Shown here one piece after another: positions 22,201 through 58,107 of a stretch of DNA of 64,000 nt. The translations under genes and the position numbers were made by a program. This DNA is from Humulus lupulus. Taxonomy: Eukaryota > Streptophyta > Magnoliopsida > Rosales > Cannabaceae. The notes under the pieces were generated by a model. That model made no database searches. It was not told the DNA's origin and worked only from the letters and a program-made list of their open reading frames with translations. The stretch spans positions 147,680,397 to 147,744,396 of the forward strand of contig NC_084800.1 in the NCBI RefSeq assembly GCF_963169125.1, given 5' to 3'. Each line of letters starts with the position of its first letter. Position 1 is the stretch's first letter.

Positions 22201-24752
22201 ATCAAGGAGTTATTAGAAAATGGAGAGACCTAACGAACGCCTTTGGCTCCTGCATACAGGAGTGGGCTCAATAGGACCTCAAGAATAGAAAACAGAAACA
22301 AATGATCACAAATATATATATATAAAAAAAAGAATAAAGTTGTGATAATGTTGCAAGATAAAGTCGGCACCAACCACAATATGTCTTAAAAAAGTTCCTG
22401 ATGGAAAGAGCAAAAAACCAAGAGAAACCTCATTTACGTGAGCACGTATCTAACTCTCGTGTACCTATCACCAATTAGAATTATCAAAGTGCATGAGAAA
22501 AATGATCAAAGCGCCCAATGAGATAAATCTTGCCAACAACTTGGGGGGCAGAGTGTACAGCCAAAAAAGATCCTAAAAGAGACCTATATATATAAAAAAA
22601 AAGAATAAAGATGAAAACCGTGCACGGCATCACTTAAGTTCACGAGGATTAGCTACCCTTATGATCATCAAGAGAGTAAAAGGGTCCTACCAGAAGAACC
22701 TCCTAATAAATGCTAGTACCTCCACCAGAGGAAAGACCACAGGAAGAGCATCCACCAATAAGCCTAGAGCAGCCACCAAGCTGTCTAGCCAAAAGTGCGC
22801 CTAATAGAGACCCTTGTAAAAATAGTAATATGCAAAATGACGAGAAGGACGCTTCTCGCAATAAAAAACAAGCGCGAACAAAAATATATAAAAGGATAGT
22901 TGGAACCCAGAGGGTCAACATATCCTTACAAATATAATCTAGGTGCACCAAAGAGGCCATTGCTACCGGTCCAAATAAAGTATCAACGAGTTATTAGAAA
23001 AAATAGAGACCTATCGAGCCCCTTTGGCTCCTGCATATAGGAGTGGGCTGAGAAGGACCTCATGCATAAAGAAATAAAAACAAATGATCACACACATATA
23101 TATATATATATAAAAGAAGAAAGTTGTAATAATGGCTTAGGATAAAGTCGGCACCAACCACAACAGGACTTAAAACAGTTCCTGAAGAAAGAGCAAAAAA
23201 CCAGTAGAAACCTCATTTACTTGAGCACGTATCTAACTCTCGTGTACCTATAGCCGATTGGAATTATCAAAGTGCATGAGAAAATTGATCAAAGTACCCA
23301 ACTAGATAAATCTCCCCAACCACTTGGGGGCAGAGTATATAGCCAAAAAAGGTCCTAAAAGAGACTTATTTAAAAAAAATAAAGAAGAAATCCTTGCAAG
23401 GCATCACTCGAGTTCACAAGGATTAGCTACCATTATTATCATGAAGAGAGTCAAAAGGTCCTACAGGAGGAACCTCCTAATAATGGCTGGCACTTCCACG
23501 GGAGGAAAGACCTTATGAAGTTCCACCAATAAGCCGACAGTGTCCACCAAGCTGTCTAGCCAAAAATGGCCGTAAAAGAGACCCTTCAAAAAATAGTACT
23601 ATGCATAATGACGAGAAGGACGCTTTTCGCAAAAAATTATAAGCAGGTGTAAAAATATATAAAAGAATAGCTAGGACCCAAAGGGTCAATAAATCCTTAC
23701 AAATATAATCAAGGTGCACCAAAGAGGCCATTGCTACCGGTCCAATTATAGTATCAAGGAGTTATTAGAAAATGGAGAGACCTATCGAGCCCCATTGGCT
23801 CTTGCATACAAGAGTGGACTCAGAAGGTCCTCAAGCATAAAGAAACAGAAACAAATGATCACAAATATATATATAAAAGAATAAAGTTGTGATAATGTTG
23901 CAGGATAAAGTCGGCACCAACCACAACAGGACATAAAAAATTTCCTGAAGGAAAGAGCAAAAAACGAGGAGAAACCTTATTTACGTGAGCACGTATCTAA
24001 CTCTCATGTACCTATCACCAATTAAAATTATCAAAGTGCATGAGCAAAATGATCGAAGAGCCCAATGAGATAAATCTCGCCAACCACTTGGGGGGCAGAG
24101 TATATAGCCGAAAAAGGTCCTAAAAGAGACCTATATAAAAAAAAATAAAAAAAAGATGAATACCTTGCACGACATCACTTGAGTTCACGAGGATTAGCTA
24201 CCCTTATGATAATCAAGAGAGTGAAAAGGTCCTACCGGAAAAACCTCCTAATAAAGGTTGCTACCTCCACCAGAAGAAAGTCCATAGGAAGAGCATCCAC
24301 CAATAAGCCTTGTGCGGCCACCAAACTGTCTAGCCAAAAGTTCCCCTAACAGAGACCCTTCTAAAAATAGTACTATGAAAAATGACGAGAAGGACACGTC
24401 TCGCAAAAATTAACAAGCGCTTGCAAAAATATATAAAAGGATAGGTAGAACCCAAAGGGTAAACATATCCTTACAAATATAATCAAGGTGCACCAAAGAG
24501 GCCATTGCTACCGGTCCAAATAAAGTATCAACGAGTTATTAGAAAAAATAGAGACCTATCGAGCCCCTTTGGCTCCTGCATACAGTAGTGGGCTGAGTAG
24601 GACCTCAAACATAAAGAAACAAAAACAAATGATCACATATATATATATATAAAAGAAGAAAGTTGTGATAATGGCTCAGGATAAAGTTGGCACCAACCAC
24701 AACTACACTTAAAATTGTTCCTGAAGGAAAGAGAAAAAAACCAGTAGAAACC
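16222..24752 (+). repeat. Tandem array of eleven ~775-bp units inside Tat1
   Basis: An anchor of the form gagataaatctcgcc occurs at 16314, 17089, 17877, 18650, 19427, 20209, 20983, 21747, 22520, 23303 and 24067, that is every 764-788 bp. Each unit starts near ctcatttacgtgagcacg and ends near ccagtagaaac. Each includes a short variable TA run (longest near 17661 and 23095). From unit 3 on, odd units share aatggctcagg and ccaccagagg; even units share aatgttgc, cacgagagg and gtccaccaag. The pair period is about 1540-1560 bp. A single related unit is in Tat2 at 39541-39960. Small frames inside units are not treated as genes. Confidence 0.9.
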
Positions 24753-27060
24753 TCTCCGGTATAATAAGGTTCGAATTTGCATACAACAAAAATGTAGTGA
24801 AAAATAAATACTATAGAAACGAAATCTTTAGGCCAACTGCCACGATCATTCCACTCTGCCGCCTTGGCAACGGCATGGTCACCAGAGGAGGAACAGTCAA
24901 AACGAGGATTCTGCCTCCACATTCCTTAAAGGGTGCGCTCTACGGACTTATACTCAACCTCTACTAAATGTGCCACCAGGAGAGTGACCCTCTCCCTCAA
25001 CACCCCTGCCTTATCTTCTGTTGTCTTCTTCTTTTTGGATGATGAAGAGGCCTTTGCCAGGGCTTTCTCCAGCACGAGGTTGACATCGCCAAGTTGTCCC
25101 TCAATCTCCTGAACTTTAATCGTTAGACGATCCCTTTCAGCATTGGAGGAAGATAGGTCCTGTGTCGAGTCTACAAAGTTCTGAGCCTTCAGAGAAGTCT
25201 GCAAGGAAGCCAAAAGTGAGCAAATAAGGAACGTAAAACACAAAAATTACCAATGTAAGACGCATGAACTGACCCCAGTTGTGGAGAGCACAAGGGTCTC
25301 CCCAAGCTCTGCCATGGTAAAATTCTCGAAACCTCTCCACTTGGTCTCAGGGATACCCTCAGCAACTCGGGCATACCTTCGCACATAAGGGCCTGATGTA
25401 TGACCCATCCAGAATGTCCCCTCCCAATCAGGAGTGCCTGAGTGGGCAGGGACAGATGACCCACTCACTGAACGAGGAGGAGGCACAAGAACATCAAACG
25501 AAGGGTACCTCGAATAGTCATGACTAGCGAGGGCACAAGGAAGATTACAAAAATCATCAAAGGAAGGTAGAACGAAGCAACCTTGGATGGTCTATGGAAC
25601 GTGGGAATGAGAACTCGTGCCGCGGTCCGTTGGAGCAGAAGAGGGGCGTCCCTTGGAGGCTAGACATAGCCAAGCTAGATGTTTAGATTCAGGAGAAGCC
25701 TTCTCATGCACCAATTCAACATCACCCTCGTCCGAGTGAGGTTCTGCCGGAGTTGCCTTCTTCTTTCGCTCATAAATGTGCCATAGGAGGTTGGGCTCCA
25801 AAACCCTAGATATACCATAGTGATTGAGGTTGGCCACAGCAAAGAGGTGGGCAGCCATTTTCGTTGCAGAGTTTGCGTCAAGGAAGACATCTACCAGCGC
25901 CACCTCCGACTCAGGAATGTCATTGATACTAAAATCTTTGAACAATCAACTCAGTTATCAATATGAGTATAAGTTCCACAATAGCAAACTCAATATAAAA
26001 GGAAACACATGAAGTACTTACTTGGAGATGAGCGAATATGTTCTCGAATAGAAATGGGACCTTTCACAATGAAAAAGTCCAACTTCCATGAACTTGGGTT
26101 AGAAACGGAACCCTATATTAAGGAGACCTGAGAGTTGGCTTTTGTAAAAAGTAGAAGCCCTTAGATTTAGGAGTGGGCATGAGATTGTACATGAAATGCA
26201 CATCCTGGGCCGTGGCGACATGACCGTTAAGCTTCATGAATGCCATATACATGCATCTTAAGGTCAACCAGCTGCTAGGTCCCAGCTCAAGCGGAGCAAG
26301 GTCAAAGTGATTCAGGACCATGACGAAGAATAAGTGTAAGGGAATGGTCCCACCTGCATTCAAAATATGTTTGCTCATAGTGACATATCCCTGGGGGGAT
26401 TATCAGCCCGAAATTTATTGGAGGGTACATACAACTTGTACTCCTTACTAATGTGGTATTTCTCAGACTACTCTAGTAGCCTATTTTCTGATACGTGGGA
26501 AATGATGGTGGATGCCAATAAAGGACCGAAGTCTGGCTTCTCGGGAGTGACCTATTGTCTCATTCTCTTTGACATGTCTGTAAAACTAAAGGAAAATGGT
26601 GAGGTTAAAATAGAGCACTTTACCCTCCATTTTCTTCTTCTTGCTTGAGTTTTCCGCCAAGAAATTGGGTGTGGAAGCATCAAACATGGGTGGATTAACG
26701 ACAAGGGTTTAGGGTAACCAGGGGTGACCTTGTGGCTACTATAGGGAGAACACAGGGGTGAGGTTCAGGAGGGAGGTTTCCCTCCATGAACTCTAGCTCC
26801 ATTTGTAGGTCAAGAAGGCTCACTCTAAGGCTTATAATGTGATCATTACGATCAAAGGAGAAAGGAACTCCATCACCCCTCAAAGTCGAATCTAACTCGT
26901 TCTCCACCACCCAGATTTTATGCCTAATCTCTGCCATGTGTTCAAGGTGACATATATGGGCCTTCCTCAAGGTGTTGTAGTTTTTGGGGGACGTCGAGTC
27001 TGAGGATACGTCTACAAACTTGACTGACGAAGGAACGCTAGGCAACCCCTCACATGCCAT
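24753..27060 (-). pseudogene. Tat1 antisense gene (coiled-coil protein), decayed
   Basis: Lies opposite to gag. Starts MACEGLPSVPSSVKFVDVSS at 27060; the N-terminal ~110 residues match the Tat2 antisense protein (EGNLPPEP here, a stop then NFPPEP there). Further on, 26118-26378 reads PLHLFFVMVLNHFDLAPLEL and later YNLMPTPKSKGFYF, resembling the plant 'putative gypsy-type transposon' (Transposase_28-like) domain from memory. 25592-25945 is an acidic/basic linker, 25490-25560 holds FVLPSF (FVIPSF in Tat2), then a candidate intron and a coiled-coil exon. Several stops and frameshifts. Function unknown. Confidence 0.65.
24926..25198 (-). pseudogene. Coiled-coil exon of Tat1 antisense gene
   Basis: Reads TSLKAQNFVDSTQDLSSSNA, then a heptad-like region rich in Leu, Glu and Lys (VQEIEGQLGDVNLVLEKALA), a Lys tract and VEVEYKSVERTL before a stop. 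VERTL recurs at the same place in Tat2. A candidate 75-nt intron (25199-25273, GT...AG, ending cttccttgcag on the minus strand) joins it in frame to the preceding exon ending ETLVLSTTG. Confidence 0.6.
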
Positions 27061-27563: not shown

Positions 27564-27571
27564 TATTTATA
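27564..27571 (-). promoter_or_regulatory. Antisense promoter TATA box in Tat1
   Basis: Minus strand TATAAATA, preceded by tcaatggct (CCAAT-like) about 30 nt upstream, and 504 bp before the antisense ATG. Tat2 has ccaatggct and TATAAATA with nearly the same spacing and a 534-bp distance to ATG. Confidence 0.6.
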
Positions 27572-27832
27572 GGAGGCTTAAACTCATTGTAGCCATTGAA
27601 TTCAATATTTGATCTTTGGTCAAGAATGAAGCAAAACACCTTCATTGGGATCCGCAAAGCCAAATGATAGGTTCACATTTACTCTCAAGGAATGATGTGG
27701 ATCACCATCCCAAAGTGTGTTACTTAACACTACCAAGGAAAATAAACACATTAACACTATAAAGGGTTTGAAGACACCATACCGAAGAGTCTACAGAGCA
27801 CATAAAGGCCCTCTCATGGACTAGGGGGCAAG
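27572..27832 (+). other. Tat1 3' noncoding region with polypurine tract
   Basis: No gene. Ends with ctagggggcaag (27821-27832), a polypurine tract directly before the 3' LTR start TGTGGATGC. Confidence 0.6.
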
Positions 27833-28104
27833 TGTGGATGCTAAGAATTCCACACCAGTGAAAGACACAAATCATGTGTCTGAAGTCCCTTGAAGGACCA
27901 AAATACGCACATGTGCCTACACCCCTGGACGTGTGTTGGGAAGCCTTGCCAGGTAATGCCCCGCTAGCACCGTGGTGCCTCATCTAACCAAGCTACAGCA
28001 CCTCGCAAGACCCTCCTCTCAAGCCAGGGCCTCGTGCGCCAAGCAGCTCCCCTCCCGTGAGACCCTCGTCTTGCGCCTCGTGTGTCTGTCCGGATCCGTC
28101 TCTA
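27833..28104 (+). mobile_element. Tat1 3' LTR, truncated
   Basis: Aligns with the first ~265 bp of the 5' LTR (gaccaaaatacgcacatgtg here, ggtccaaaataggcacatgtg there) and stops at about gatccgtctc. It is joined to the second part of LTR C. The missing ~1.2 kb was removed by a deletion that also took the middle of LTR C. Confidence 0.8.
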
Positions 28105-35014: not shown

Positions 35015-35443
35015 ATGGATGGAGCTTTAACATATAACGATATTCGAGCCATCAAGGCCTTAAAAAGGATTAGAGAACCAAGAAATACAGTAGGAATATT
35101 GGAAAGAATCACTCGGAGATTCCTTTTATTCTATAATCAAATAGTTCATCTCCAAACGACTAAGCAAATAATGGTGAGAGCTACGGAACAATATATTTTA
35201 GTAATTAGGATTTTTAAAGATTTTCCTTTTGTAATTGCTGTATTGGAAGAAATATGGGAGACAATAGATGTAGAAGATGAAATACCAGTGGCGATGAGAT
35301 ATTATTTTCTCATAATTAGGCTTACCTCTAAGATGGAATTTCAATTCACAAGAGAACAAAAGAATAGAATCTTTTCTAATCTTCACCGAGGAAGTTTTGA
35401 GGCTCACGAAAATGATAATTATGAAGAGATAGATGATGACATG
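35015..35443 (+). CDS. N ORF0, 5' part (155-codon frame split by Tat2)
   Basis: An intact frame of 143 codons from ATG 35015 to the Tat2 junction. It starts 140 bp after the primer-binding site. Joined across one copy of the target duplication ACATG it runs on at 47161-47199 without a frame change, giving 155 residues and a TAG stop. The protein is helical-looking with basic and aliphatic stretches (IRAIKALKRIREPR, ITRRFLLFYNQIVHLQ) and a very acidic tail. No zinc knuckle, protease or RT motif; I do not recognise it. It sits where gag is expected in a simple element, but a separate gag begins at 47736. Could be an extra ORF of N, or a small gag-like protein of a non-autonomous element. Confidence 0.6.
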
Positions 35444-36505
35444 TGTTGACGGAAAGAACTCGTCAATGATTAAAGGTTAGAAAAATCAAGTTTTTATAAC
35501 GATTAAAGCTTAGAATCAGATGGAAAGAAATTGAATCAACAGAAAAACCAGAGCTACAATAGAACAAAGATCATATATTTCTTAAGCGTCTTTCATACAA
35601 TCAGTTTTCCAACCCATCAAATTGAGGGGTTGATGCCTATTTATAGGTGGACTCTATTGGCCCCTGATACAAACAAGTCCCAGGAGGCAGGGACATACGC
35701 AGGTACACTGATAGAGTAGTGGCTCAGGGCATAGTACTATCGGCTCTGGTGTATGGCCGGGGGTGTTCAAGTGGTGCCTCTACTCTCCATATAAGTTTGT
35801 ACTGCCACTACTTCTCAGACGCAGATGGCAGGGCAACGCCTCTATCCTCTTCGCAACTGTACATCTCGTGTCAGTACACATGCCTTGTACCTACTCATAC
35901 CTATCAATTCATGTTAGACACCTAAGGGTTATTTGACATACCTTTTTGGTATCTTCAAGTATTCCTCGTACGTATATTGAGGAGCCTCCCAGCTTTATGG
36001 GTCCTGAGAAGCCAAGGCGCATGAGTGTCTTGTTGGTGGCACCTACCCCTTGAAAGGTACCAGGGCCTCTTCAACAAGACACAAGGGGTTAGTGGTGTGA
36101 CACGTCATATACGGGAGGCTTCGCCCTCGCATAGCGAGGCTGCCTGGCTGCCTTAGGATCGTGCACGGAGACAAGGTGTGAGACACAAAGACAAGGCGCA
36201 TAGCGAGGCCGGCTGTGTGGGGACGAGGCGCGAGACATGAAGGCACCGCGAGGCTATACCCTCGCATAGAGATGCGGGCTTGTGCGTGAGTAACCTGCTG
36301 AGGGCCCTCGCATGGCGAGGGTGGCTCTCTTAGCCAAACCTCTCTGATGCTATGTGATGCCCTTGTCCCTTTATGCGTGTAGAAAGTGTCCAAGTGGGGC
36401 TCCCGCCCCTTCATCCCTCTAACATGTGTCTCTTAGTCTTTAAGGGACCTCGTAGCGTAGAGGTTTGCCTGAACAAAATTCACCAAGGAAGAATTCCTAC
36501 ATTCA
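35444..36505 (-). mobile_element. Tat2 3' LTR
   Basis: 1062 bp, bounded by tgttgacgg (low end) and cctacattca (high end). Matches the 5' LTR at 46010-47153 except for about 80 bp of repeat-associated indels. Has ctatttataggtgg, a reverse TATA (TATAAATAG on the minus strand near 35637). Confidence 0.9.
36121..36321. repeat. Hairpin-forming ccctcgcatagcgaggg repeats, 3' LTR of Tat2
   Basis: Short near-perfect palindromes such as cctcgcatagcgagg (36125-36139) and ccctcgcatggcgaggg (36305-36321) with 3-nt loops, plus partial copies between them. Confidence 0.8.
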
Positions 36506-36516
36506 CATTTCCCCCC
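36506..36516 (-). other. Tat2 polypurine tract
   Basis: Minus strand GGGGGGAAATG directly upstream of the 3' LTR start, the standard plus-strand primer. Confidence 0.8.
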
Positions 36517-36810: not shown

Positions 36811-36846
36811 CCAATGGCTCAGGGGCCTTGACTTTCCTTATAAATA
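36811..36846 (+). promoter_or_regulatory. Antisense-gene promoter of Tat2 (CCAAT and TATA)
   Basis: CCAAT at 36811 and TATAAATA at 36839-36846, oriented against the element. The ATG of the antisense gene is 534 bp downstream. The same pair, same spacing and similar flanks occur in Tat1 (27564-27571 and upstream). Not inside an LTR, so it would give a transcript independent of the LTR promoter. Confidence 0.65.
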
Positions 36847-36959
36847 CCCCAAGGCTTGAAGCCATTTCTCCACACCAAAACTTGCCTAGCCTAGTGGTGT
36901 TCCCACCAAACCACATTCAAGAGTTCAAAGGTTCCACCCTCCATGAAAGCATTCTTGAG

Positions 36960-37046
36960 GTAATTTTCCTTCCATTTCAATTATTCATCCTCTTTTTTTT
37001 TAATTATTTTTCCTGATTCTTTTGCTCTTCTTTCTGTTTTTTCTAG
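36960..37046 (+). other. Candidate 5'-leader intron of Tat2 antisense gene
   Basis: ttgag|gtaatttt and tttttctag|catt enclose 87 nt with a long pyrimidine run. Corresponds in position to the 117-nt candidate intron of Tat1. Confidence 0.5.
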
Positions 37047-37372
37047 CATTGTGGTGACGCTAGGCATTCTTTCGCTCCTACGGTCTTGCCTTTGCTTATC
37101 ACTCAACCGACCCTATGCCTCCATAAGTCTATCCTTGCACACCTTCGACTTCATACATATACCCCCAGGTATGCCTCCCTCCTCTTTTTTTTATACTGAC
37201 TATGTGGGGGTAGAATTAATGGTTGCACGACACTCATTCTTCAAAGTTTGTCATTCTTTTCGTATGGCCTTTCCAGTACATATGCATAGGCCCTTTTCTT
37301 ATACCCATCCCACTCATGTTGTAGATATACGGTTACCCTTACGCATATACGACCTCGAGTCTTAGCTGGTCC

Positions 37373-38591
37373 ATGGCGTCTAGGCGATGTCCAAAGCATC
37401 CGACCAATGTTGAATTTATTGAGTTTTCATTCTCCGACTCGGAGGCCGACGTACGTAGACCCTCTAACTGCGGGGGTGTGCGGACGCTCGACCTCCGGAG
37501 ATTGTCCTACCTCAGAAAGAAAGCGTGCGACGCGTGCGACCTAGAGAGGGAGCTAGAATCCAATACTAGGGACGCGGGTTTAGGTTTCTCCCCCCAGCAT
37601 GCGACATACATTTCCCATCTACAATCAATCCTCCAGGATTGCCTTTTTGAAATTGCTTGCCTAGAATAAAACTTTCCCCCTGAGCCTTTTTCCTTCCGTC
37701 GTGACGAGTCTCCCGGTCATAGGGATCCCTCCTTTGAAGGCGGTAGACGTGAATTGGTTGAACCGGCAACCGAACGCTCGTGACGAGTGATGAAAATCCT
37801 GGCCTTGTCGAGTGACTGTAAACAAGCCAGCGCCCTTTCTACAGAGAGCAACCTTCGCTTGTACAGGCTGCTCATCCTGAATCATACCGTCACTTTATGC
37901 TCCGTTTCCTCCGAACCTGCGAGCCTATGCCCTGCCTCATTTGAATCGGCGGGTCCACGCCCTATGTCACCTGAACCTGTGGATCTGTGCCCTGCGCCAC
38001 TCGAACCTGCGGATCCATGCCCCCCCTCACCTGAACCTGCGGTTCCGTGGCTATACGGACACGATGAAGGTAATTATAACGTGGTATCCGATAGGGACTA
38101 TGTCTACCCTTCGGGCGATCATATGGATGTTGAGGAGACAGTGGTATCTGAGAACTACTCGTGCTTTCACTCTATTGCCGGCATGGCTGGGGGCGTGGTC
38201 GATGAACGTCATACTGGTGGTGTTAGCTCTTGGATGTCACTGTCGATGCTTGGCGGCGAGTTTGCATTTGATGCCTCTGTCCCTCACCCCTCCGTGCCTA
38301 AAAGGAATTTTGTTATTCCTTCTTTTGCTGGGGCTCCTCAACCCCCTAGGAGGCGTTCTAGGGGGGTGCCTTCAGGCACCTCTTTACCCAAGGAGATGAC
38401 TCCGTGTTCTTCTGCTCCCCGCACAAATGCAGATGGATCAGGACCTTCTCGGTCCCCATCCCTGACAAAGCGTGCCTCGGCAAGAACACGCGCCTCCCCC
38501 GGCCAAGCTTATGTTTCTGCTTCGAAAGATCATCCTCGGGCGAGCCAGTATGGGGAAGCCATGAGCCATCATCTGGGAAACTTTCCCAAAG
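37373..38591 (+). pseudogene. Tat2 antisense gene, first coding exon
   Basis: One frame from MASRRCPKHPTNVEFIEF (37373) with only two stops: TAA at 37667 (Gly in the Tat1 homologue) and TGA at 37778. After these it is open to 38635. Content: an N-terminal domain shared with Tat1, helical segment HATYISHLQSILQDCLFEIA, a Pro-rich 10-residue repeat (37903-38050), an acidic stretch, FVIPSF shared with Tat1, then a Ser/Arg/Pro-rich basic region. A donor cccaaag|gtgagt ends the exon at 38591. Product and function unknown; no enzymatic motif seen. Confidence 0.65.
37903..38050 (+). repeat. 30-bp coding minisatellite in the antisense gene
   Basis: About 4.5 copies of a unit coding the motif SPEPxxLCPA (variants SSEPASLCPA, SPEPVDLCPA, SPEPAVPW). 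In frame, so the number of copies can change without breaking the reading frame. The shorter Tat1 homologue does not show it. Confidence 0.8.
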
Positions 38592-38763
38592 GTGAGTGGG
38601 GGGCCTTGTATAATGTCTCCAAGGCTGAGCTTTAAAACGCCCATATGCGAGCCTCTTTGCAGGTACTTGTCGAGATACTCGGTTTATTCATTTATGATAG
38701 ATATATATTTTTTGATATCACCTAACCCTCGAGGCTTTATTCCATGTCCTCGCCCTTACCTAG

Positions 38764-39140
38764 GCTTCCATCTTGAGTCATCGGCTGATCGACTCCAACT
38801 CCTCATCGACCCAAAATGTGAGCTTGAGGAGGCCATGGGGAACCTATCGGTGACCAAGGCGGGAAAGGATGTCTTGTCAAGTCAACTAACCGAGGCAATT
38901 TTCCAGAGGGACGTCGCCTTAGCCCAAGCTGCATCAATCTCTCACACCAACACTCAGCTGGAGGCTACCATCCAAACTTTAAATGAGAGGATCATTGTTC
39001 TCGAGGCTGAGCTTCTGAATGTTGAGAATTGCATAGTCGAGCGCACGTTGCACGCTGTCTGGATGACCAACCCCACCGTTGACCCTACGAAGTTTCACTG
39101 TTCCCTGGGATTGGCTTTGGGCTTTTTCTGCACAGCTTAG
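38764..39140 (+). pseudogene. Tat2 antisense gene, coiled-coil exon
   Basis: After a candidate intron (38592-38763; an alternative acceptor tttgcag lies at 38662) the frame gives GFHLESSADRLQLL, then heptad-type helix LTEAIFQRDVALAQAASISH, QLEATIQTLNERIIVLEAEL and ENCIVERTL, and ends FFCTA at 39140. The splice would be in frame (AAA G|GC). The Tat1 counterpart has the same coiled-coil then VERTL. Suggests an oligomerising protein. Confidence 0.6.
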
Positions 39141-39540
39141 GTGGAAGGCGAAGAAGACCTCCTTCCGGGAGGGCCCGAGCCATCAGCGAGATACCACTCT
39201 GGAAGAGCTAGAATTCTAACCTTGTGTCAGGACCTACAGGCCAAGGGACAGTCTCAGGTAGACAGTTTCTATGAGGTGTAGGCCTCCCAAAACTCGACTC
39301 CCTTTGGAGATTATGCCATCGAGAAGATTTCTGAGTGGAAGGGTCAAGATGGAGATTTGTAGGTTCCTTTGTATTCGACCTATGTATGTTATTGCTATGT
39401 AATCCCTCACATTATTTCCCTTTTCTCTCCTTTTTTCTTTTGTGTTCATCAAACTTAAGGGACTTTAGTAAGTCCCTCTTATAATTATTATTATTATTAT
39501 TATTATTATTATTTATGGATTACATATATTTTCCTTAATC
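39141..39540. other. Noncoding DNA downstream of Tat2 antisense gene, with an (ATT)n run
   Basis: Decayed continuation of the antisense frame to about 39360, then noncoding. A perfect (ATT)n microsatellite, about 10 units, lies at 39484-39512. Confidence 0.6.
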
Positions 39541-39960
39541 TGATGGTGATAATCTTTCTGGTGCACTTTGATTATACTCGTGGACACGTTAACCCATTTG
39601 GCTCTTGGGGTCCTTTTATATTCTTTGTGCGCGATTGTTACTTTTTGCGAGAAGCATCCTTCTCGTCATTATATATAGTACTATTTCTTCAAGGGTCTCT
39701 TGTAGGACCCTTTTTGGCTAGCCGGCTTAATGGTCGTTCTAGACTTATTGAGAGACTCCCTCCTTACGGCCTCACCCCCTGGGATGTCGGCCTTTGGTTG
39801 GAGGTCATCCGTTTAAACTATTCCCTTGACATTCATAAGGGTAGCTAATCCTTTTGAATATAAGAGGTTTTATTTATACTCGTGCCTCCTGTCCTACCCC
39901 CCAAGTGCTTGGTGAGATTTACTTTGGCAGTCACTTTGGTTGATGCTCGCATAGAGAAGT
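39541..39960 (-). repeat. Single Tat2 copy of the Tat1 array unit
   Basis: Reverse complement of the array unit of 16222-24752: shared segments include gcgagaagcatccttctcgtcat, gggtctcttgtaggacc, gcttaatggtcgttctagac and ccccccaagtgcttggtgagattt. Present once, between pol and the antisense gene, the same relative place as the array in Tat1. Confidence 0.85.
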
Positions 39961-40123
39961 AAATAACATACGAAGTGGTGAACAGTTTCATTCATAGTAG
40001 TCAGATTACAATGATATATATAAAAAGGTTTACATCTACTTGGGAGGTTATCTAGGAAACCTCTTTGATTCTCGTCTACTAAGATAACATAACTTGCAAC
40101 AAACTAAACACAGATACTGCTTG

Positions 40124-41258
40124 CATTGGATGTGGAAGTCTTACTGGCAATACTTCCTGAGGTGTTCCGCATTCCATGCTCGAGGTATGATGGTGTCGTC
40201 CATGTGCGCCAGCTTATAGGTGTTTGGTGGTATGTATTGAGCGACTTGGTAGGGCCCCAGTTCGCCCCAAGCACCCCCGCCCCCGGGTCTCGCGTGTTGG
40301 GGAGTACTTTTCTTAATACCAGGTCACCTATTCTGAACGTTCTCTCTTGCACCCTCGAGTTGTAATACCTTGCTGCCCGCTGCTGGTATACCGCCACCCT
40401 CATTTGCGCCTTTTCCCTTCTTTCTTCTAGCATGTCCAAGCTTTCGGCCATTGCCGCATGGTTGACCTGGTCCTCGTATGCCTGTATCCTATGCGAGTTA
40501 ACCTTCATCTCAATCAGGAGGAAAGCCTCACATCCATAGGCTAAGGAGAAAGGGGTCTCTCTAGTGGTTGTGCACGGAGTGGTTCTGTAGGCCCAAAGCA
40601 TGTTAGGTAACTCCTCAACTCAAGCACCTTTCATCTTCTCTAGCTTTGTTTTTAAGTTCATCTTAACGATTTTGTTAATGGTCTCCACCTGCCCATTGGC
40701 TTGTGGATGCACAACAGCCGAGAAGCTTCTCCTTATGCCTCTTTCCCTAAAGTACTCCTCGAACGTTTCCCCTTCAAATTGAGTGTCGTTGTCAGAAATA
40801 ATCTTGTAGGGCACTCCATATCTGCAGACAATGAACTTATTTACAAAGGTGGTGATATGCTTGGCCGTTATCTTCACTAGAGGTTCTGCTTCAACCCACT
40901 TGGTGAAGTAATCTTTGGCTACCACCGCGTACTTCGCTCCACCTCTTCCTGGGGGAAGGGTGCCAATCAGGTCTATCCCCCAAATAGCAAAGGTCCAAGG
41001 GCTGGTCATGTTGGTCAATTAATTCGGGGGTTTTCGGGAGTAGTTTGCATGCCTTTGGCATTTGTCACATCTCCTTACGAAATCATTTGCATCTCTCTCC
41101 ATGGAAGGCCAGTAGTACCCTTGCCTCATGGCTTTTCGAGCATGGTTGCCGCATTCACCCTCATGTATTTCATATAGTACCTTCACAGCTTCTTCCTCAC
41201 CAACACATCGCAAGAGTGGCACAAAAAACTCCCTCTTGTATAAGATCCCATCTACCAA
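40124..41258 (-). pseudogene. Tat2 integrase
   Basis: From 41258: zinc-binding HEGECGNHARKAMRQGYYW and CDKCQ (HHCC), core aspartates in IWGIDLIGTLP and ISDNDTQFEG, and the glutamate in NGQVETINK; then MLWAYRTTP, YGCEAFLL and RIGDLVLRKV. All three catalytic residues are kept. Lesions: TAA at 41019, TGA at 40617, and a small deletion after GANWG that shifts the frame; in the other frame the proper end (PRAWNAEHLRKYCQ) is readable to about 40124. Inserts element DNA into the genome with 5-bp duplications. Confidence 0.85.
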
Positions 41259-41264
41259 GGTGTA

Positions 41265-42035
41265 TCAGACCGCCTTATAAACTAGCCTCTGAGCCTCCCT
41301 CTTGTCTGTTGGCACCACTCCATCCTTCAGGTAGCTTATAATCGGGCTGGCCCATGACTCCTTTGGGATGCTGACCATGTGAACGTCTGGATTGACAATG
41401 GTTGGCCTTGGTAAGTATTCCACAGGCACTGATTCAAGGGTATTCCCATCTTTAGTGGAAGCCAACTTTGCGAGGGCATCAACATGGGTATTCCTCTCTC
41501 TCGGGATTTGCTCTATGGTATATTCCACCAACTGCTCCAAATAGCCTCTTACCCTTTCCAGGTATGTAGCCATCTTGGGACCACTCGCTTGGTACTCCCC
41601 TTTCACCTGGAATACCAACAACTGTGAGTCACTAAAGATGTGTAGATGCGTTACCTTCAGCCCCTGGGTCAACCGCAACCCTGCTAGAAATGCTTCGTAT
41701 TCTGCCTCATTATTCAAGGCTTCGAACCCAAACCGTATCGTGCTATACATCCTGTGTCCTTCGGGTCCAGTCATCACGATACCTGCTCCAGATCCTCCTT
41801 CATTGGATGCTCCATCCACGTGCAGGCTCCATTCCTCAGAACTCCTTGGCTTCCCTTCTGTGACTGATTGTCCCTCTTCTTCATCTCCTCCTCCATTCGG
41901 TCGATAGGTGAATTCCACTATGAATTCTATGAGCACTTGCCCATTGATGGAGGTCCTTTGAGTATAAGAGATGTCGAATTGACTCAACTCGACCAACCAC
42001 TTCTTCAGTCTTCCCGAGGTTTCAGGTTTATGCAA
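41265..42035 (-). CDS. Tat2 archaeal-type RNase H region of pol
   Basis: An uninterrupted 256-codon stretch of pol. It opens with LKKWLVELSQFDISY, the end of the first RNase H region. From about residue 85 is a second RNase H: WSLHVDGASNEGGSGAG (first Asp), EAEYEAFLAGLRLTQGL (Glu), IFSDSQLLVFQVKGEY (second Asp) and NTHVDALAKLAS (third Asp). This dual RNase H is the hallmark of the Tat lineage. It is part of the pol polyprotein, and runs into integrase at 41258 after one stop. Confidence 0.85.
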   Translation of the reverse strand: MHKPETSGRLKKWLVELSQFDISYTQRTSINGQVLIEFIVEFTYRPNGGGDEEEGQSVTEGKPRSSEEWSLHVDGASNEGGSGAGIVMTGPEGHRMYSTIRFGFEALNNEAEYEAFLAGLRLTQGLKVTHLHIFSDSQLLVFQVKGEYQASGPKMATYLERVRGYLEQLVEYTIEQIPRERNTHVDALAKLASTKDGNTLESVPVEYLPRPTIVNPDVHMVSIPKESWASPIISYLKDGVVPTDKREAQRLVYKAV

Positions 42036-42305
42036 GACCTACCTTAAAGGGCTATTGGTGAGTACTTCGATCGCATGGGCATGGAAATAGGGCCTCAATT
42101 TCCTTCAAGCCACAACTAATGCGTATGCCAACTTCTCTGTCTCTGGGTATCGGTTCTTCGCATCTACTAACCGTTTACTTATGTAGTACACAGGTTGCTG
42201 GTGTTTCTTCTCTCCTATAATGAGGGCAGCACTTATGGCATGCTCGGATACTGCCAAGTATGTGTATACCCTTTCGCACCTTTCAGGTTTTTCCAACAAG
42301 GGTGG
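42036..42305 (-). pseudogene. Tat2 first RNase H / connection domain
   Basis: Reads YTYLAVSEHAISAALIIGE, QPVYYISKRLVDAKNRYPET and KLAYALVVA, the gypsy RNase H without its first aspartate, as usual for the degenerate first domain in Tat elements. Interrupted by stops at 42297-42305, 42102 and 42036, each a single-base change. Confidence 0.8.
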
Positions 42306-43150
42306 CTACCCTAAGTGCTCCTTCAGCTTGACAAATGCATCCTCACATTCTTCATCCCAAGCGAACTTTTTGCTCCCTTTTAGGATTTTGAAGAAGGGGA
42401 GACATTTGTCCGTAGACCTCGAGATCAACCTATCCAGGGCTACCACCCGTCCTGTTAGACATTGCACCGCCTTCCTATTCTTGGGGGGAATCATTTCTAT
42501 TAGGGCCTTTATCTTATCAGGATTAGCTTCGATGCCTCTAGAGTTGACCATGAAGCCTAAGCACTTTCCCGAGGATACACCAAAAGTGCACTTGAGTGGA
42601 TTCAACTTCATTCGGTACTTCCTGAGTGTGTCAAACATCTCCCCTAGGTCTTTGCCGAGTTCTGCGACCATTTTGGTCTTCACCAGCATATCATCAACGT
42701 ATACCTCCATGTTCCTCCCTATCTGGTTAGCGAACATTTTGCTCACCAATCTTTGATAGGTGGCACCCGCGTTCTTTAATCCGAAAGGCATCACCCTATA
42801 ATAGTAAAGCGCTTTCTCTGTTATAAATGATGTATGCTCTTCGTCGTCCGGGTTAATAGGTATCTGGTTGTATCTAGAATGGGCATCCATAAAGCTAAGT
42901 AACTCGTCCTCGGACGTTGCATCCACCAGCTGATCTATCCTTGGGAGTGGAAAACTTTCCTTAGGACAAGCTTTATTGAGGTTTGAGAAGTCAATGCAAG
43001 TCCTTCATTTTCCATTTGGTTTCGGGACTAGCACTGGGTTCGACACCCATACAGGATAGAAGGACTCACGGATGGACCCATTGGCCTTCAACTTGTCCAC
43101 CTCCTCCTTTAGGGCTGCGTACCTCTTTGGATCAAGCGCTCATCTTTTCT
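42306..43150 (-). pseudogene. Tat2 reverse transcriptase
   Basis: From about 43150: YAALKEEVDKLKANGSIRE, PVWVSNPVLVPKPNG, one stop, CIDFSNLNKACPKESFPLPR, then the open 206-codon frame from 42926 with MDAHSRYNQIPINPDD, MPFGLKNAGATYQRLVSKMF and the catalytic YVDDMLVKTK. Followed by the thumb and connection (CLTGRVVALDRLISRS). Catalytic residues intact; one premature stop near 43006. Gene order continues into RNase H. Confidence 0.85.
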
Positions 43151-43502
43151 GCCTGACGGGCCTTGCCTTAGGGGTGATATTCAAATGGTTGCACATGATG
43201 GCTGGATCTATTCCTACCATGTCTTTGTGACTTCAAGCAAATACATCCAGATTGTCATTCAAAAACCTTACCAACTTCTCCTTCGCGTCGCTTTGAAGGC
43301 TTTTTCCCACCTTTAATTTTCGCAATGGTTCTTCCATCAGTACAATCTCCTCTACCTCCTCCACAGGCTCAGCCCCTGGCTCTTCCATGATTCTGGGGTC
43401 TAGTTCCTACGGTTTTGTGCCCCCATGCACCACCATCGCCATCGGTTCTCGCAGTTTCACAGACGTGCGAAGGGAGGTGTTATAACACTCCTTTTCCTCC
43501 CT

Positions 43503-44141
43503 TTATTCTCCTTTCATACTCGCTACTCCACCAGGAGTTGGGAACTTGATGGCAAGGTGATATATTGAAGTGATCGCTTTCAATTCTCTCAGGGACGGTC
43601 TCCCCAATACCGCATTGAAAGCTGAAGCACAATCTACTACGACAAAATTTGCCATGACTGTGGTCTGTCGGGGTTGCTCTCCCATGGTTAGTGCCAATTT
43701 GATTACCCCTAAGGGTTCTATCGAGTCACCCGTGAACCTGTATAAGGAGGATTGACAGGGTTTCAAGTGTTTAACGCCCAAACCCATCTTCTCCAAGGCG
43801 GGGCAATATAAGATATCTACGGAACTTCCGTTGTCTATGAGGACCCTACGTACCCGCTTGTTGGCCAACTGAACTATCAACACCAAAGGATCATTATGGG
43901 GAAAGTGCACCCCTCGTGCATCCTCCTCTGTGAAATTGATCGAGTCATTTTCTCCCTTAATGCATTTCAGGGGTCGCTGCTCCAAACTCATGACACACAG
44001 TGGTGGACCCCGACTGGCTTCTCTTGCGTAATTGTCTCGACCCTTCTTGGACTCTCCCCCAAACCCCGGACCTCCGAAGATTGTTCTCACCTCCCCTTGT
44101 ATCTCTGGGGCTCCACCCTGTGTCCGAGGTATCACCAGCAC
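43503..44141 (-). CDS. Tat2 gag C-terminus and aspartic protease
   Basis: 212-codon open frame. An APEIQGEVRTIFGGPGFGGE segment shared with Tat1 leads to the protease: VLIDNGSSVDILYCPALEKM carries the catalytic Asp, with SAFNAVLGRPSLRELKAITS as the flap-distal half. Ends PGGVASMKGE. The 350 bp between here and RT (43151-43502) are a linker with stops in this copy. Releases mature proteins from the polyprotein. Confidence 0.85.
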   Translation of the reverse strand: MLVIPRTQGGAPEIQGEVRTIFGGPGFGGESKKGRDNYAREASRGPPLCVMSLEQRPLKCIKGENDSINFTEEDARGVHFPHNDPLVLIVQLANKRVRRVLIDNGSSVDILYCPALEKMGLGVKHLKPCQSSLYRFTGDSIEPLGVIKLALTMGEQPRQTTVMANFVVVDCASAFNAVLGRPSLRELKAITSIYHLAIKFPTPGGVASMKGE

Positions 44142-45930
44142 ATTGTCCGATTTCTATTTCTCCCTTCTAACATATCGGCCCAGGTGTCCCCTTTTGATGA
44201 GCTCTTCAATTTCTTCCTTCAAATGGGTACATTCTGCCGTGGTATGGCCGATATCCTTGTGGTATTGACAGTATTTTCTAGGGTCCCTCTTGGACTGATC
44301 TTTTCTCATCGGTGGGGGCCTCTTGAAGGGAACCCAGTCCTCATTTGTGAGGTAGATATGCTCTCTGGTGTCCATCAGGCTCGTATAGAAGATGTAGGCC
44401 GTTTTCCTGTGGTCGCTTCCGCGTTTGGTCCTTCTATGTTGGTCATCCCTCAACCTTTCATAAACCTTCTTCTTCTTCGCTCCATTCGACCCTTCATTGG
44501 TTGGGGGATTTATATGGGACTCACTTTTTCTTTCCTTTAAGTTCGCATGGCCATCCTCCACACGAATGTACTTTTGCACCCTCTCATAGAAGTCATCTAG
44601 GTCAATGACTTCCCTTTTGAGCATATTATCCCACAATTTTCTTCCCTGACGCACTCCGGCTGTTATGGCCATTTTTAACTCCCTACGGGTCAGGCTCCCT
44701 ACTTTGGTTGCCTCCATGTTAAACTTGTGGATGTAGCCCTTTAGACTCTCATTTTCTCCCTGCTTCACATTGGCGAGGCTGGTGCCCGACATTGTGTAAT
44801 CATGCACGGCGTGATGTTGTTGGAGAAATTCATCAGAAAACTACTGCCAGGACCTGATGGACCCTGGTCAAAGTCTCTTGAACCATTTGTACGCAGGTCC
44901 TTTCAATGTGACAGCAAAGCAATGGCACCTGGCTCCGCTACTAATCCCCCTTAACCTCATCAGGTCGTTAAACGTGTCCAGATGGTACTTAGGATCTGTG
45001 TTTCCCTCATAGGGAGTCATATGTGGCTCCTTGAAGTTGGCTGGGAGCTGGATAGCTTGGATCTCTTTAACGAAGGGTGATTCATGGTCGAACTTGTCCT
45101 GACGGCTTGTCCCCCAGATGCGGTGATGATCTTGCTCCGTAGGCTTCTCATCTCTGTGTCTAGGTCTTGTCTCCTCTTCTTCAAGGAGTCTTTCAACGTG
45201 GAGGGGCTTGCATTTCCCTTTCCTTTGCCTTCCCAGGGTGCCATAGGAGGTGTAGTCCTTTTATCTTCCCTTTTCTTGTTGAGTTCCTCTCGTAGATCTG
45301 AGGATGTCTTCCTTGAAGTGACCTCGACGTCGTTATGAGGGCCAGCGTTGTTCTTCTGCTCTGGCCTCGAAGGCTGCTTTGATGGTCCCGGACATTCGTG
45401 CTGCTTCTCCCAGGGGGTGTTACTGGTGGAGAGTCGAGTCCTCCCATCATCTACTAAGATAGTGGTCTCTGCCCCCTCTCGGCCTCTCTCTTTTCGCTTA
45501 GGGAGTGATATGTTTGACTTCCCTTGCAATAGGCCATTCAACACCTCCTGCATTTTCACTAAGGTGGTTTCAAGCCTGTGGTTCTTGCGGTGTTATTCAC
45601 GTACCTCCTCTTAATAGAATCGAGAGCTTGAGCTCGAGCTCACGGAATGGACCCGGGGATGCTTGTCAGGTTTGTTGGCCGGAGTTTGGCACCTATGGCA
45701 GCCTTGGTGGTGGGAACTCGTCGGCATCTTTTGTAGGGGGAGCTATTGACCTTGGATGATTCTCATCGGGAGGGATGGCCGGGGATGAAGCCTCCCTCTC
45801 TACTTCGTGAACTTCGGGTTCCTTTGGGGCTTCTGCGTCTCTGGGCGGAGGAGGGTTCTTCATGGAGGCCTTCAACTGATCTCCATCAAGGCGGACCTTC
45901 ACCTCTCATGACTCTCTCACTTGTTTGGAA
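44142..45930 (-). pseudogene. Tat2 gag
   Basis: Frames 45902-45693, 45559-45017 and 44807-44154 cover most of gag. N-terminus LDGDQLKASMKNPPPP, a charged low-complexity region, LDTEMRSLRSKI, a core piece around 44810-45010 (frame broken), then SGTSLANVKQGENESLKGYI, EVIDLDDFYERVQKYIRVED, and the Tat zinc knuckle CQYHKDIGHTTAEC (C-x2-H-x4-H-x4-C). Several stops separate the frames. Homologous to Tat1 gag throughout. Confidence 0.85.
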
Positions 45931-46009: not shown

Positions 46010-47153
46010 TGTTGATGGTAAGAACTCATCAATGATTAAAGGTTAGAATACTCAAGTTTTTATACTAAGGATAGCTTAGAATCAAATGGAAAGAACTTGA
46101 ATCAACAGAAAAACCAGAGCTACAATAGAACAAAGATCATACATTTCTTAAGCATCTCTCATACAATCAGTTTTCCAACCCCTCAACCTGAGGGGTTGAT
46201 GCCTATTTATAGGTGGGCTCTATTGGCCCCTGATACAAACAAGTCCGAGGAGATAGGGACGTACGCGGGTACACTGATAGAGTAGTGGCTCAGGGCATAG
46301 TGGTGTCTACCCTGACAATGCCAGAGTAGTGGCTTAGGGCATAGTACAATCGGCTCTAATGTATGGTCGGGGGTGTTCAAGTGGTGCCTCTACTCTCCGT
46401 ACAAGTTCATACTGCCACTACTTCTCAGAGACAGATGGCAGAGCCACACCTCTATCCTCTTCGCAACCGTACATCTCGTGTCAGTACACGTGCCTTGTAC
46501 TTGCTCATACCCATCAATCCATGTTAGACACCTAAGGATTATTTGACAAACCCATTTGGTATCTTCAAGTATTCCTCATACGTATATCGAGGAGCGTCCC
46601 AGCTTTATATGTCCTGAGAAGCCAAGGCGCATGAGTGTCTCGCTGGTGGCACCTACCCCTTGAAAGGAACCAGGGCCTCTTCAACGAGACACAAGGGGTT
46701 AGTGGCCAGACAGGACGTATACGGGAGGCTTCTCCCTCACATAGTGAGGGTGCCTCACATAGCGAGGCTGCCTGGTTGCCTTAGGATCGCACGCAGAGAC
46801 AAGGTGCATATGAGGGGCCTCACCCTTGCATAGCGAGGCTAGCTGCGCGGGGATGAGGCGCGAGACACGAAGGCACCACGAGGCTATACCCTCGCATAGC
46901 GAGGGTGCCTCGCATAGAGATGCGGGCTTGTGCATGAGTAACTTGCCGAGGGCCCTCGCATGGCGAGGGTGGCTCTCTTAGCCAAACCTCTCCGATGCTA
47001 TGTGATGCCCTTATCCCTTTATGCGTGTAGAAAGTGGCCAAGTGGGGCTCCTGCCCCTTCGTCCCTCTAACATGTGTCTCTTAGTCTTTAAGCGACCTCG
47101 TAGCATAGAAGTTTGCCTGAACGAAATTCACCAGGGAAGAATTCCCACATTCA
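46010..47153 (-). mobile_element. Tat2 5' LTR
   Basis: 1144 bp, tgttgatgg to cccacattca. Longer than the 3' LTR because of a duplicated agagtagtggctcagggcat segment (46280-46345) and extra tagcgagg repeats (46735-46770, 46885-46910). Elsewhere the two LTRs differ at a few percent of positions. Confidence 0.9.
46735..46969. repeat. Hairpin-forming ccctcgcatagcgaggg repeats, 5' LTR of Tat2
   Basis: Palindromes ccctcgcatagcgaggg (46889-46905) and ccctcgcatggcgaggg (46953-46969), plus cctcacatagcgaggc-type copies. More copies than in the 3' LTR. Confidence 0.8.
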
Positions 47154-47160
47154 CGACATG

Positions 47161-50520: not shown

Positions 50521-51346
50521 TATGGAAGTCTAGCAGCATTAGCTGGAATAGAAAAGCCGCTACATCAGGAGCTGATCAATGCTGGAATAGAGGTAGTCAT
50601 TGGTAAATTGGCTAACTTGTCCATACAGTCAAGACTGTTAGAAAAGATACAGATTGGACAAGGGCATGATGACACATTAGTAGTACATATGGATGCAGTT
50701 AAAGAAGGCAAGGCCACAGATTTCTCGATATCAGGACAAGGGTTCTTGAGGTATAAGGATCGGGTATGCGTGACGAATGATAAAGAGATTAAGACGAATA
50801 CTCTAGAAGAAGCGCACAGCAACCCATACTCAATTCACCCAGGGTCGACCAAGATGACTCACGATCTTAAAGCACTATATTGGTTGCCAGGAATGACGAA
50901 GGATATAGCGGAGTATGTGTCTAAATGCTTAGTATGCCAGCAAGTAAAAGCAGAACATTAGTGGCTTGCAGGCTTATTACAACCGCTTAGCATTCCAGAA
51001 TGGAAATGGGACAACATAGCCATGGATTTTGTGACAGGACTTCCACGAACAAATAAACAGCATGACTCGGCTTGGGCAGTTGTAGATAGACTAACCAAGT
51101 CAGCTCTTTTCCTGCTTGTCAGAACTACATTCACAGCAGATCAATACGCTGACGTTTATGTCTAAGAAATAGTATGACTGCATGGAATCCCTAAAACAAT
51201 AGTATCTAATAGAGGATCGGTGTTTACATCAAGATTTTGGGGAAGTTTGCAGCAGGCCACGGGTACCAAGTAAAGTCTTAGTATAGCATTTCCATCCTCA
51301 GACAGACGGTCAGTCCGAGCGTACCATACAGATTTTAGAAGATATG
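50521..51346 (+). pseudogene. N integrase, part 1
   Basis: Zinc-binding segment AHSNPYSIHPGSTKMTHDLK and CLVCQQVKAEH, one stop, then the core: WKWDNIAMDFVTGLP (first Asp), [13 protein letters not shown], then VSNRGSVFTSRFW where the second Asp is Asn, and a frameshifted PSSDRRSVRAYH equal to HPQTDGQSERT (Glu). Stops at the point where the LARD-like element entered (51347); target duplication ATATG at 51342-51346. Continues at 60332. Confidence 0.85.
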
Positions 51347-58093: not shown

Positions 58094-58107
58094 GAGAAGG
58101 GGATAGT
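58094..58107 (+). other. Polypurine tract of the LARD-like element
   Basis: gagaaggggatagt directly before the 3' LTR, preceded by tttcgaggatgaaattttta, a typical 3' end for Tekay-like gypsy elements. Confidence 0.8.

Follow-up and report, generated by a model that had tools for sequence, protein, structure and literature searches.

The 64,000-nucleotide window analysed here (Humulus lupulus contig NC_084800.1, positions 147,680,397 to 147,744,396) contains two long terminal repeat (LTR) retrotransposons, Tat1 and Tat2, and in each of them a frame runs against gag-pol between pol and the 3' LTR. Judged from sequence comparisons, it is very probable, as to both identity and architecture, that the Tat2 frame is a decayed copy of the antisense accessory gene known from the same position in Retand/Tat-lineage Ty3/gypsy elements, and that this copy has lost its TRP28 domain by deletion. 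At the family level our comparisons support a gene read against gag-pol, which encodes in turn an N-terminal region, TRP28 (PF04195), a linker of considerable length and a C-terminus resembling a coiled coil.

Antisense frames of Tat1 and Tat2

The presence of the antisense frame in both elements, already claimed in the initial annotation of this DNA, was borne out when the two pol-to-3' LTR regions were compared by tblastx in the orientation given above, as the collinear antisense frames gave a sum E of 1.65e-17 and the best set on the opposite strand reached only 4e-5. The encoded proteins share 30% identity over 86 codons at the N-terminus and 37% over 70 codons in the coil, and both contain an FV(I/L)PSF motif, so that the related N-terminus and the motif noticed earlier also hold. 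It should be noted that the DNA of the N-terminal exon is no more alike between the two elements (146/303 aligned bases) than that of the leader (298/621, 48% in each case), and the case for N-terminal homology therefore rests on the protein comparison. Statements about Tat1 refer to a single copy, and those about Tat2 could be extended to siblings from the same 2.48 Gb genome, where 40 copies were scored of 897 first-look candidates (39 without the window copy). The in-frame TAA of Tat2 at 37667 aligns with a Gly codon of Tat1, and one and the same sense codon, which is not Gly, occupies this place in 34/39 siblings; the view that the ancestral frame was open here is thus upheld.

The antisense frame of Tat1 encodes TRP28, as do those of 19/20 Tat2 siblings in which the domain was scored by similarity to the hop protein P0003 (PF04195 is precomputed for this protein), and the Tat2 copy in the window does not. 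The 20 siblings, which are the first 20 of the 39 fetched, were also those used for the deletion scar and the 213-bp stretch described below. In the 19 siblings the domain lies in a stretch missing from the window copy at 37766/37768, where matches abut on both sides in 18/20 siblings with 780–829 bp between them (824–829 bp in 15/18), and the window copy is without TRP28 because of this deletion. What remains in Tat2 is therefore an incomplete gene, in which TRP28 and the first intron have been deleted and stop codons interrupt the rest. The gene had been described initially as it reads in Tat2, without TRP28; this description falls, the domain having been overlooked.

We note separately that a 213-bp (71-codon) stretch at 39085–39297 occurs only in the window copy: it is absent from 20/20 siblings examined, and the matches of the 39 other scored copies end before it.

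Tat2 has an LTR pair flanked by the 5-bp target site duplication (TSD) ACATG (35439–35443 and 47156–47160, by eye), and the LTRs are 85.9% and 91.4% identical in their two main pieces (blastn), which marks Tat2 as an old insertion. Reverse transcriptase (RT, PF00078, RVT_1, within 42309–42926) and the RVT_3 RNase H (RH, within 41268–42035) both score above the Pfam cut-off, and the gag match lies below it. Gag and RT together with an extra RNase H (RVT_3) characterise the Tat lineage of Ty3/gypsy, and the LTR pair with its TSD and the two domains above cut-off mark Tat2 as a probable Retand/Tat Ty3/gypsy element. Tat1 lies on the plus strand, starts at ~12,007 and has a 3' LTR match that ends at 28102. 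Its gag-protease part, in which we take the protease to be present from a motif in the absence of a Pfam match, matches Tat2 up to Tat2 ~43387–43395, and no counterpart of the RT–RH–integrase (INT) region of Tat2 was found in Tat1 at E 1e-3, where the tandem array described at the end of this text takes its place. The region between pol and the 3' LTR is long in both elements (Tat2, 36508 to ~40104; Tat1, ~15966 to ~27832, with most of pol gone), and the antisense open reading frame (ORF) lies inside it, as in Retand/Tat-lineage elements.

Table 1. Features of the antisense gene and its host elements in the window (fractions are siblings).
Feature	Position	Strand	Basis or remark
Tat2 3' LTR	35444-36507	minus	LTR pair by blastn; repeat families D12, D13, D16
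Tat2 promoter-like block	36812-36846	plus	CAATGGCT 36812-36819 and TATAAATA 36839-36846; common to Tat1
Leader intron, candidate of the initial annotation	36960-37046	plus	GT 32/38, AG 31/35
Exon A remnant, ATG and N-terminal region	37373-37766	plus	tblastx to Tat1; in-frame stop 37667 in this copy
Deletion scar	37766-37768	plus	Siblings mostly hold ~826 bp here, made up of intron 1, the TRP28-coding portion of exon A before it and the beginning of exon B after it
Exon B, linker with FVIPSF	37768-38662	plus	Stop depletion; database proteins P0001-P0003; in-frame stop 38633 in this copy
Intron 2, phase 0, 101 nt	38663-38763	plus	Median 103 nt in siblings; GT 39/39, AG (38762) 39/39
Exon C, coiled-coil-like C-terminus	38764-39359	plus	Broken in this copy by 39085-39297; sibling stop codon 39360-39362
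Tat2 gag-pol, element sense strand	40104-45559	minus	Pfam
Tat2 5' LTR	46010-47155	minus	LTR pair by blastn; repeat families
Tat1 exon C, coil	24829-25198	minus	In-frame stop after VERTL; homology runs beyond
Tat1 intron-2-like gap, phase 0	25199-25273	minus	Same place as Tat2, 10 residues after AEL motif; by eye
Tat1 TRP28 / Transposase_28 (PF04195)	26121-26399	minus	Pfam, 31.9 bits (cut-off 26.2), E 1.5e-7
Tat1 antisense N-terminal frame, ATG 27060	26698-27060	minus	tblastx to Tat2
Tat1 promoter-like block	27564-27598	minus	CAATGGCT from 27598 and TATAAATA 27571-27564; common to Tat2

Exons, introns and the promoter-like block

When stop codons were counted per frame along the 39 siblings, one open frame was found to follow another on the antisense strand, and this suggests a family-level gene of three coding exons and two introns (Table 1). 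The commonest exon lengths, 1072 (12/39), 926 (8/39) and 393 nt, add up to 797 codons and hence to a multiple of three. The ATG of exon A is kept in 31/39 siblings; the exon covers the N-terminal region as well as TRP28 and ends at a GT donor (35/39); intron 1 is 107 nt long in 31/39 and has its AG in 31/39. The phases match across both introns. At intron 1, one base is left over from exon A (this reading is open in 12/39; 2 and 0 for the other two phases) and exon B has an offset of two (20/39; others 1 and 1). At intron 2, no base is left over from exon B at 38663 (22/39; 0 and 1 for the other phases) and exon C has no offset (18/39; others 0 and 0). The stop at Tat2 39360 is reached by 15/39 siblings.

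The place and phase of intron 2 are also supported in the diverged Tat1, as is an intron-1-like donor, CCAA/GTAAG at 26021, which by eye resembles that of intron 1. The database gene model of P0003 uses the same intron 1 in our own reading of the junction, and the conservation of sites and phases supports splicing of the putative transcript. The coiled-coil nature of the C-terminus is plausible by eye, with Pfam coil matches below cut-off. The coil exon had been thought to end with VERTL, at 39140, and this had to be given up: the stop concerned (39138–39140) falls inside the 213-bp stretch peculiar to the window copy, the sibling frame runs on to 39360, and the homology of Tat1 passes VERTL.

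An intron at 38592–38763 had also been put forward, and its acceptor is right and its donor wrong, as the donor is predicted at 38663 instead. At 38592 exon B of the siblings leaves one base (open in 25/39) and exon C starts in phase 0, and we therefore rejected this donor, whose apparent fit is due solely to a 7-base length difference that belongs to the window copy (38/39 siblings have exactly the longer length). This bears on the gene as first conceived, an N-terminus, an FVPSF exon and a coil exon joined with no TRP28. The window copy does read in this way apart from its stops, and 33/39 siblings retain the sequence AGGTGAGT around the donor at 38592, but TRP28 stands in between in Tat1 and in 19/20 siblings examined, and the donor is out of phase with exon C once the 7-base difference is allowed for, so we give this version very little credence. 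Gene finders looking for single long ORFs would split the two-intron gene preferred here, and a Tat2-like copy would be misread as encoding a TRP28-less protein.

Two further candidates were dropped. Acceptor 38777 gave way to 38763 once the 7-base difference had been recognised, and the idea that an intron separates TRP28 from the N-terminal region was rejected because, judged by eye, the frame change there stems from an indel of L009, the reference copy; two copies read straight through from the one to the other. As a separate observation, the Pro-rich stretch of the linker contains a 30-bp tandem repeat of 4.5 copies (37913–38046).

Upstream of exon A, the promoter-like block lies ~260–330 bp inward of the 3' LTR edge. 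The CCAAT-like box and TATA motif with matching spacing reported for both elements are indeed present, with a TATA-to-ATG distance of 534 bp in Tat2 and 511 bp in Tat1 (the 504 bp first given for Tat1 had been counted from the last TATA base). The occurrence of TATAAATA in both leaders was matched in 0/2000 dinucleotide shuffles of both leaders; it is kept in 30/39 siblings, and as 52/715 leader 8-mers are kept better, its conservation is high and not exceptional. The claim of a distinct antisense gene, equipped with a promoter-like region of its own, is supported. The leader introns proposed for both elements have GT and AG ends; we leave them as unproven candidates because the two donors fall at different places in the alignment, and because in the Tat2 siblings the GT and AG are kept about as often as other such pairs in the leader.

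Selection on the antisense frame

The initial annotation had suggested looking for the frame in copies of the same genome, and there it is recognisable from a depletion of in-frame stops: 42/5003 in the N-terminal block, 35/10,101 in the linker and 20/4073 in the coil, against 142–644 in the five other frames per block (298–644 for the linker). These counts and the ratios of nonsynonymous to synonymous substitution rates (dN/dS) are from 40 rows, with the window copy included. Pairwise dN/dS was 0.56 (0.46–0.70) for the N-terminal block, 0.67 (0.57–0.81) for the linker and 0.49 (0.35–0.71) for the coil, and the other frames gave 0.59–0.95, 0.64–0.76 and 0.60–0.72, respectively.

Old and young variants were then set against each other by comparing the number of nonsynonymous to synonymous changes (N/S) in shared variants, found in four or more copies, with that in singletons, for which N/S was 3.2–4.1 across the antisense blocks. 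N/S was lower for shared variants in the N-terminal block (1.46 vs 4.07, p 1.2e-4) and the coil (0.97 vs 3.31, p 0.0011), as well as in TRP28 (1.73, p 0.009) and the linker (1.77, p 0.002), and the controls from the leader (2.66 vs 2.83, p 0.89; 1.98 vs 3.23, p 0.10) and from intron 1 (1.87 vs 3.06, p 0.51, few sites) showed no significant difference. The coil gave no signal in the off +1 frame (p 0.42), nor did any block in the off +2 frame (N-terminal p 0.77, TRP28 0.59, linker 0.067, coil 1). RT served as a yardstick in the 9/20 copies that hold it, with variants shared by two or more copies giving N/S 0.32 vs 2.48 (p 3e-10); the antisense N-terminal block in the 20-copy subset, counted in the same way, gave 1.34 vs 3.32 (p 7.5e-4). 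The selection counts are uncorrected for methylation-driven C-to-T changes and all include the long-branch copies L028, L030, L032 and L046; the first ~24 coil codons, which are out of register in the siblings through the 7-base difference, were omitted only from the comparison of copies with and without pol given below. The pattern of variants indicates that the antisense gene has been constrained in the past, less than RT and mainly in the N-terminal and coil exons.

Several observations weigh against a constrained, conserved protein-coding gene. Exon A is fully open in only 2/39 copies, and the protein has diverged fast, at 30–37% identity between Tat1 and Tat2 against 61–81% for gag-protease (6 of the first seven blocks; one short block has 36%). 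The linker dN/dS of 0.67 is not below that of its other frames (0.64–0.76) and so carries no frame-specific signal; for the N-terminal block, the value of one reverse frame, 0.59, is near the on-frame 0.56. In the shared-variant comparison the off +1 frame was also lower (N-terminal p 0.032, TRP28 p 0.014, linker p 4e-4), such that the linker result is not frame-specific (off +1, 1.36 vs 2.73) and that of TRP28 hardly so, and in the 20-copy subset the blocks other than the N-terminal one were not significant (TRP28 p 0.3, linker 0.14, coil 0.068). A search with the N-terminal region returned none at E <= 10 among 376 protein-database candidates of limited length, and AlphaFold gave no usable model for P0003 with three relatives (pLDDT, the predicted local distance difference test score, of 34).

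The same data bear on two alternatives. Open frames that arose by chance and have no function would account for the stops in the window copies and for the broken state of most siblings, and leave unexplained why stops should be depleted in one frame of three blocks, why the proteins should be similar across families and why there should be a signal of constraint; we regard this as the least credible explanation of all. The antisense transcript might instead be the product itself, pairing with the sense genomic RNA, feeding small RNAs and dampening the element, with the frame of secondary importance. From its position, such a transcript would be complementary to the 3' portion of the sense RNA, the promoter-like block is common to the Tat1 and Tat2 families, and antisense RNA-mediated control is discussed for genes of this kind in PMC7264820. 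However, this explanation predicts neither stop depletion nor phase-matched introns nor frame-specific constraint of the N-terminal and coil exons, and we consider it unlikely.

Pol-less copies, known relatives and possible role

Many copies of the antisense gene are present in the genome. They belong to two structural forms, one that has pol and one that lacks it, and on a single tree the antisense genes of the two are mixed. The 3' end of pol was matched in 17/39 siblings and unmatched in 22/39, and the antisense region is kept in those 22. Among 20 siblings followed on the far side, 9 have RT, another 10 continue directly into gag and then the 5' LTR, and L015 matches nothing of Tat2 there. 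The pol-less copies share a junction at Tat2 43384 (10/10) with its other side at 40145–40161 (8/10), and from this shared junction (43384/~40147) it follows that RT, RNase H and integrase have been lost, whereas the antisense gene is retained along with gag and the protease region. The break in Tat1 (~43387) is at almost the same place. The distribution of the two forms over the tree of antisense genes requires 10 changes, compared with a mean of 13.0 for shuffled labels (34/500 shuffles were as low as 10), and 6 changes are forced by starred branches. We infer a single deletion spread by template switching, and repeated independent loss of RT–RH–INT would be a possible alternative. With four blocks pooled and variants shared by three or more copies, N/S was lower than in singletons both in copies with pol (1.28 vs 2.68, p 2.3e-6) and in those without (1.59 vs 3.07, p 6.1e-7), although the two signals are not independent because the groups share ancestry.

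In the database searches, the exon B linker matches proteins P0001–P0003, of which P0002 and P0003 are from hop. The profile of P0003 had no match in the PDB at E <= 1, and a comparison of P0003 with viral contigs confirmed no relative (records near its own genome may be left out). In P0002 the linker piece (residues 2–130) is joined to a different coil-rich C-terminus, and this protein is possibly a chimera of two antisense-gene families.

Comparisons with published systems are by description. Retand is reported in hop centromeres (PMC12371157). Among recent Retand elements, TRP28 ORFs occur in 97% of clusters, and DNA binding is predicted for the protein (PMC11963269); these ORFs agree with the gene described here in lying between pol and the 3' LTR of a long POL–3' LTR region, on the opposite strand and with PF04195. 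Tandem arrays in many elements and the lack of pol domains in some are common to both; Alopecurus myosuroides clusters 2 and 3b, for example, have GAG, AP and TRP28 and lack RH and INT, like our pol-less siblings (Table 1 of PMC11963269). The differences are that two introns and a coil exon are modelled here at the family level, and that the array units of Retand measure 8–100 bp against ~775 bp in Tat1. ORF4 of the Silene latifolia Retand is likewise antisense with a transposase 28 domain (pfam04195), and in maize Grande the space from pol to the 3' LTR also holds an antisense accessory gene, GENE23, which is described as transcribed from its own promoter and encoding a nuclear protein (PMC7264820); for the gene in the window a promoter is predicted from the DNA. 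A looser analogy, with no homology claimed, is with HBZ of human T-cell leukaemia virus 1 (HTLV-1) and other antisense retroviral genes, which produce nuclear regulators from the 3' end of LTR elements (PMC7264820, PMC11963269); the antisense promoter of HTLV lies inside the 3' LTR (PMC7264820) and the promoter-like block here inside the element.

The kind of gene is known, and an accessory or regulatory role, as the initial annotation proposed, is already in print for Retand/Grande elements and is not new (PMC7264820, PMC11963269). The main text of PMC11963269 contains neither 'intron' nor 'selection', and 'splic' only in its reference list; in the portions of the literature surveyed we found no report of introns in antisense TRP28 genes or of a selection test, and thus neither the two-intron architecture nor the test of constraint, although Gomez-Orte 2013, on Grande, and Steinbauerova 2011 may describe introns, and the former may report splicing.

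Elements that transpose by way of RNA do not usually carry spliceosomal introns, and this could be taken to mean that a host gene has been captured and rides in the element. Against such a capture, a homologous gene occupies the same place in two diverged families, and no TRP28 similarity is reported outside transposable elements (PMC11963269), so that we judge it highly improbable. For an accessory gene belonging to the element, RNA polymerase II would start at the internal TATA region near the 3' LTR, and the introns would be preserved through rounds of retrotransposition, since the genomic RNA has the opposite polarity and could not be spliced at these sites.

What the TRP28 protein does is described as an open question (PMC11963269). 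We propose tentatively, and with somewhat less than even expectation, that it may oligomerise in the nucleus, bind DNA or chromatin and so regulate or protect the transcription of its element family, and it might act both in trans and in cis. More doubtful is a wider scheme in which a three-exon gene, its introns shielded from loss by lying opposite to the retrotransposed strand, would be passed by template switching from autonomous copies to a partner form without pol (which keeps gag and the protease region) and back, serving the pool in trans or its own copy, under purifying selection in both.

Two repeats remain to be described. Adjoining the 3' end of the antisense gene in Tat1, ~11 head-to-tail units of ~775 bp occupy 16222–24754 with a mean pairwise identity of 87.5% over ten units, and ~140 bp of this unit is found once in Tat2 (39611–39750). 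A pair of ~2-kb repeats (51341–53298 and 58102–60074) lies ~6.76 kb apart near another gag-pol element, and is 95–98% identical in the two-copy blocks listed.

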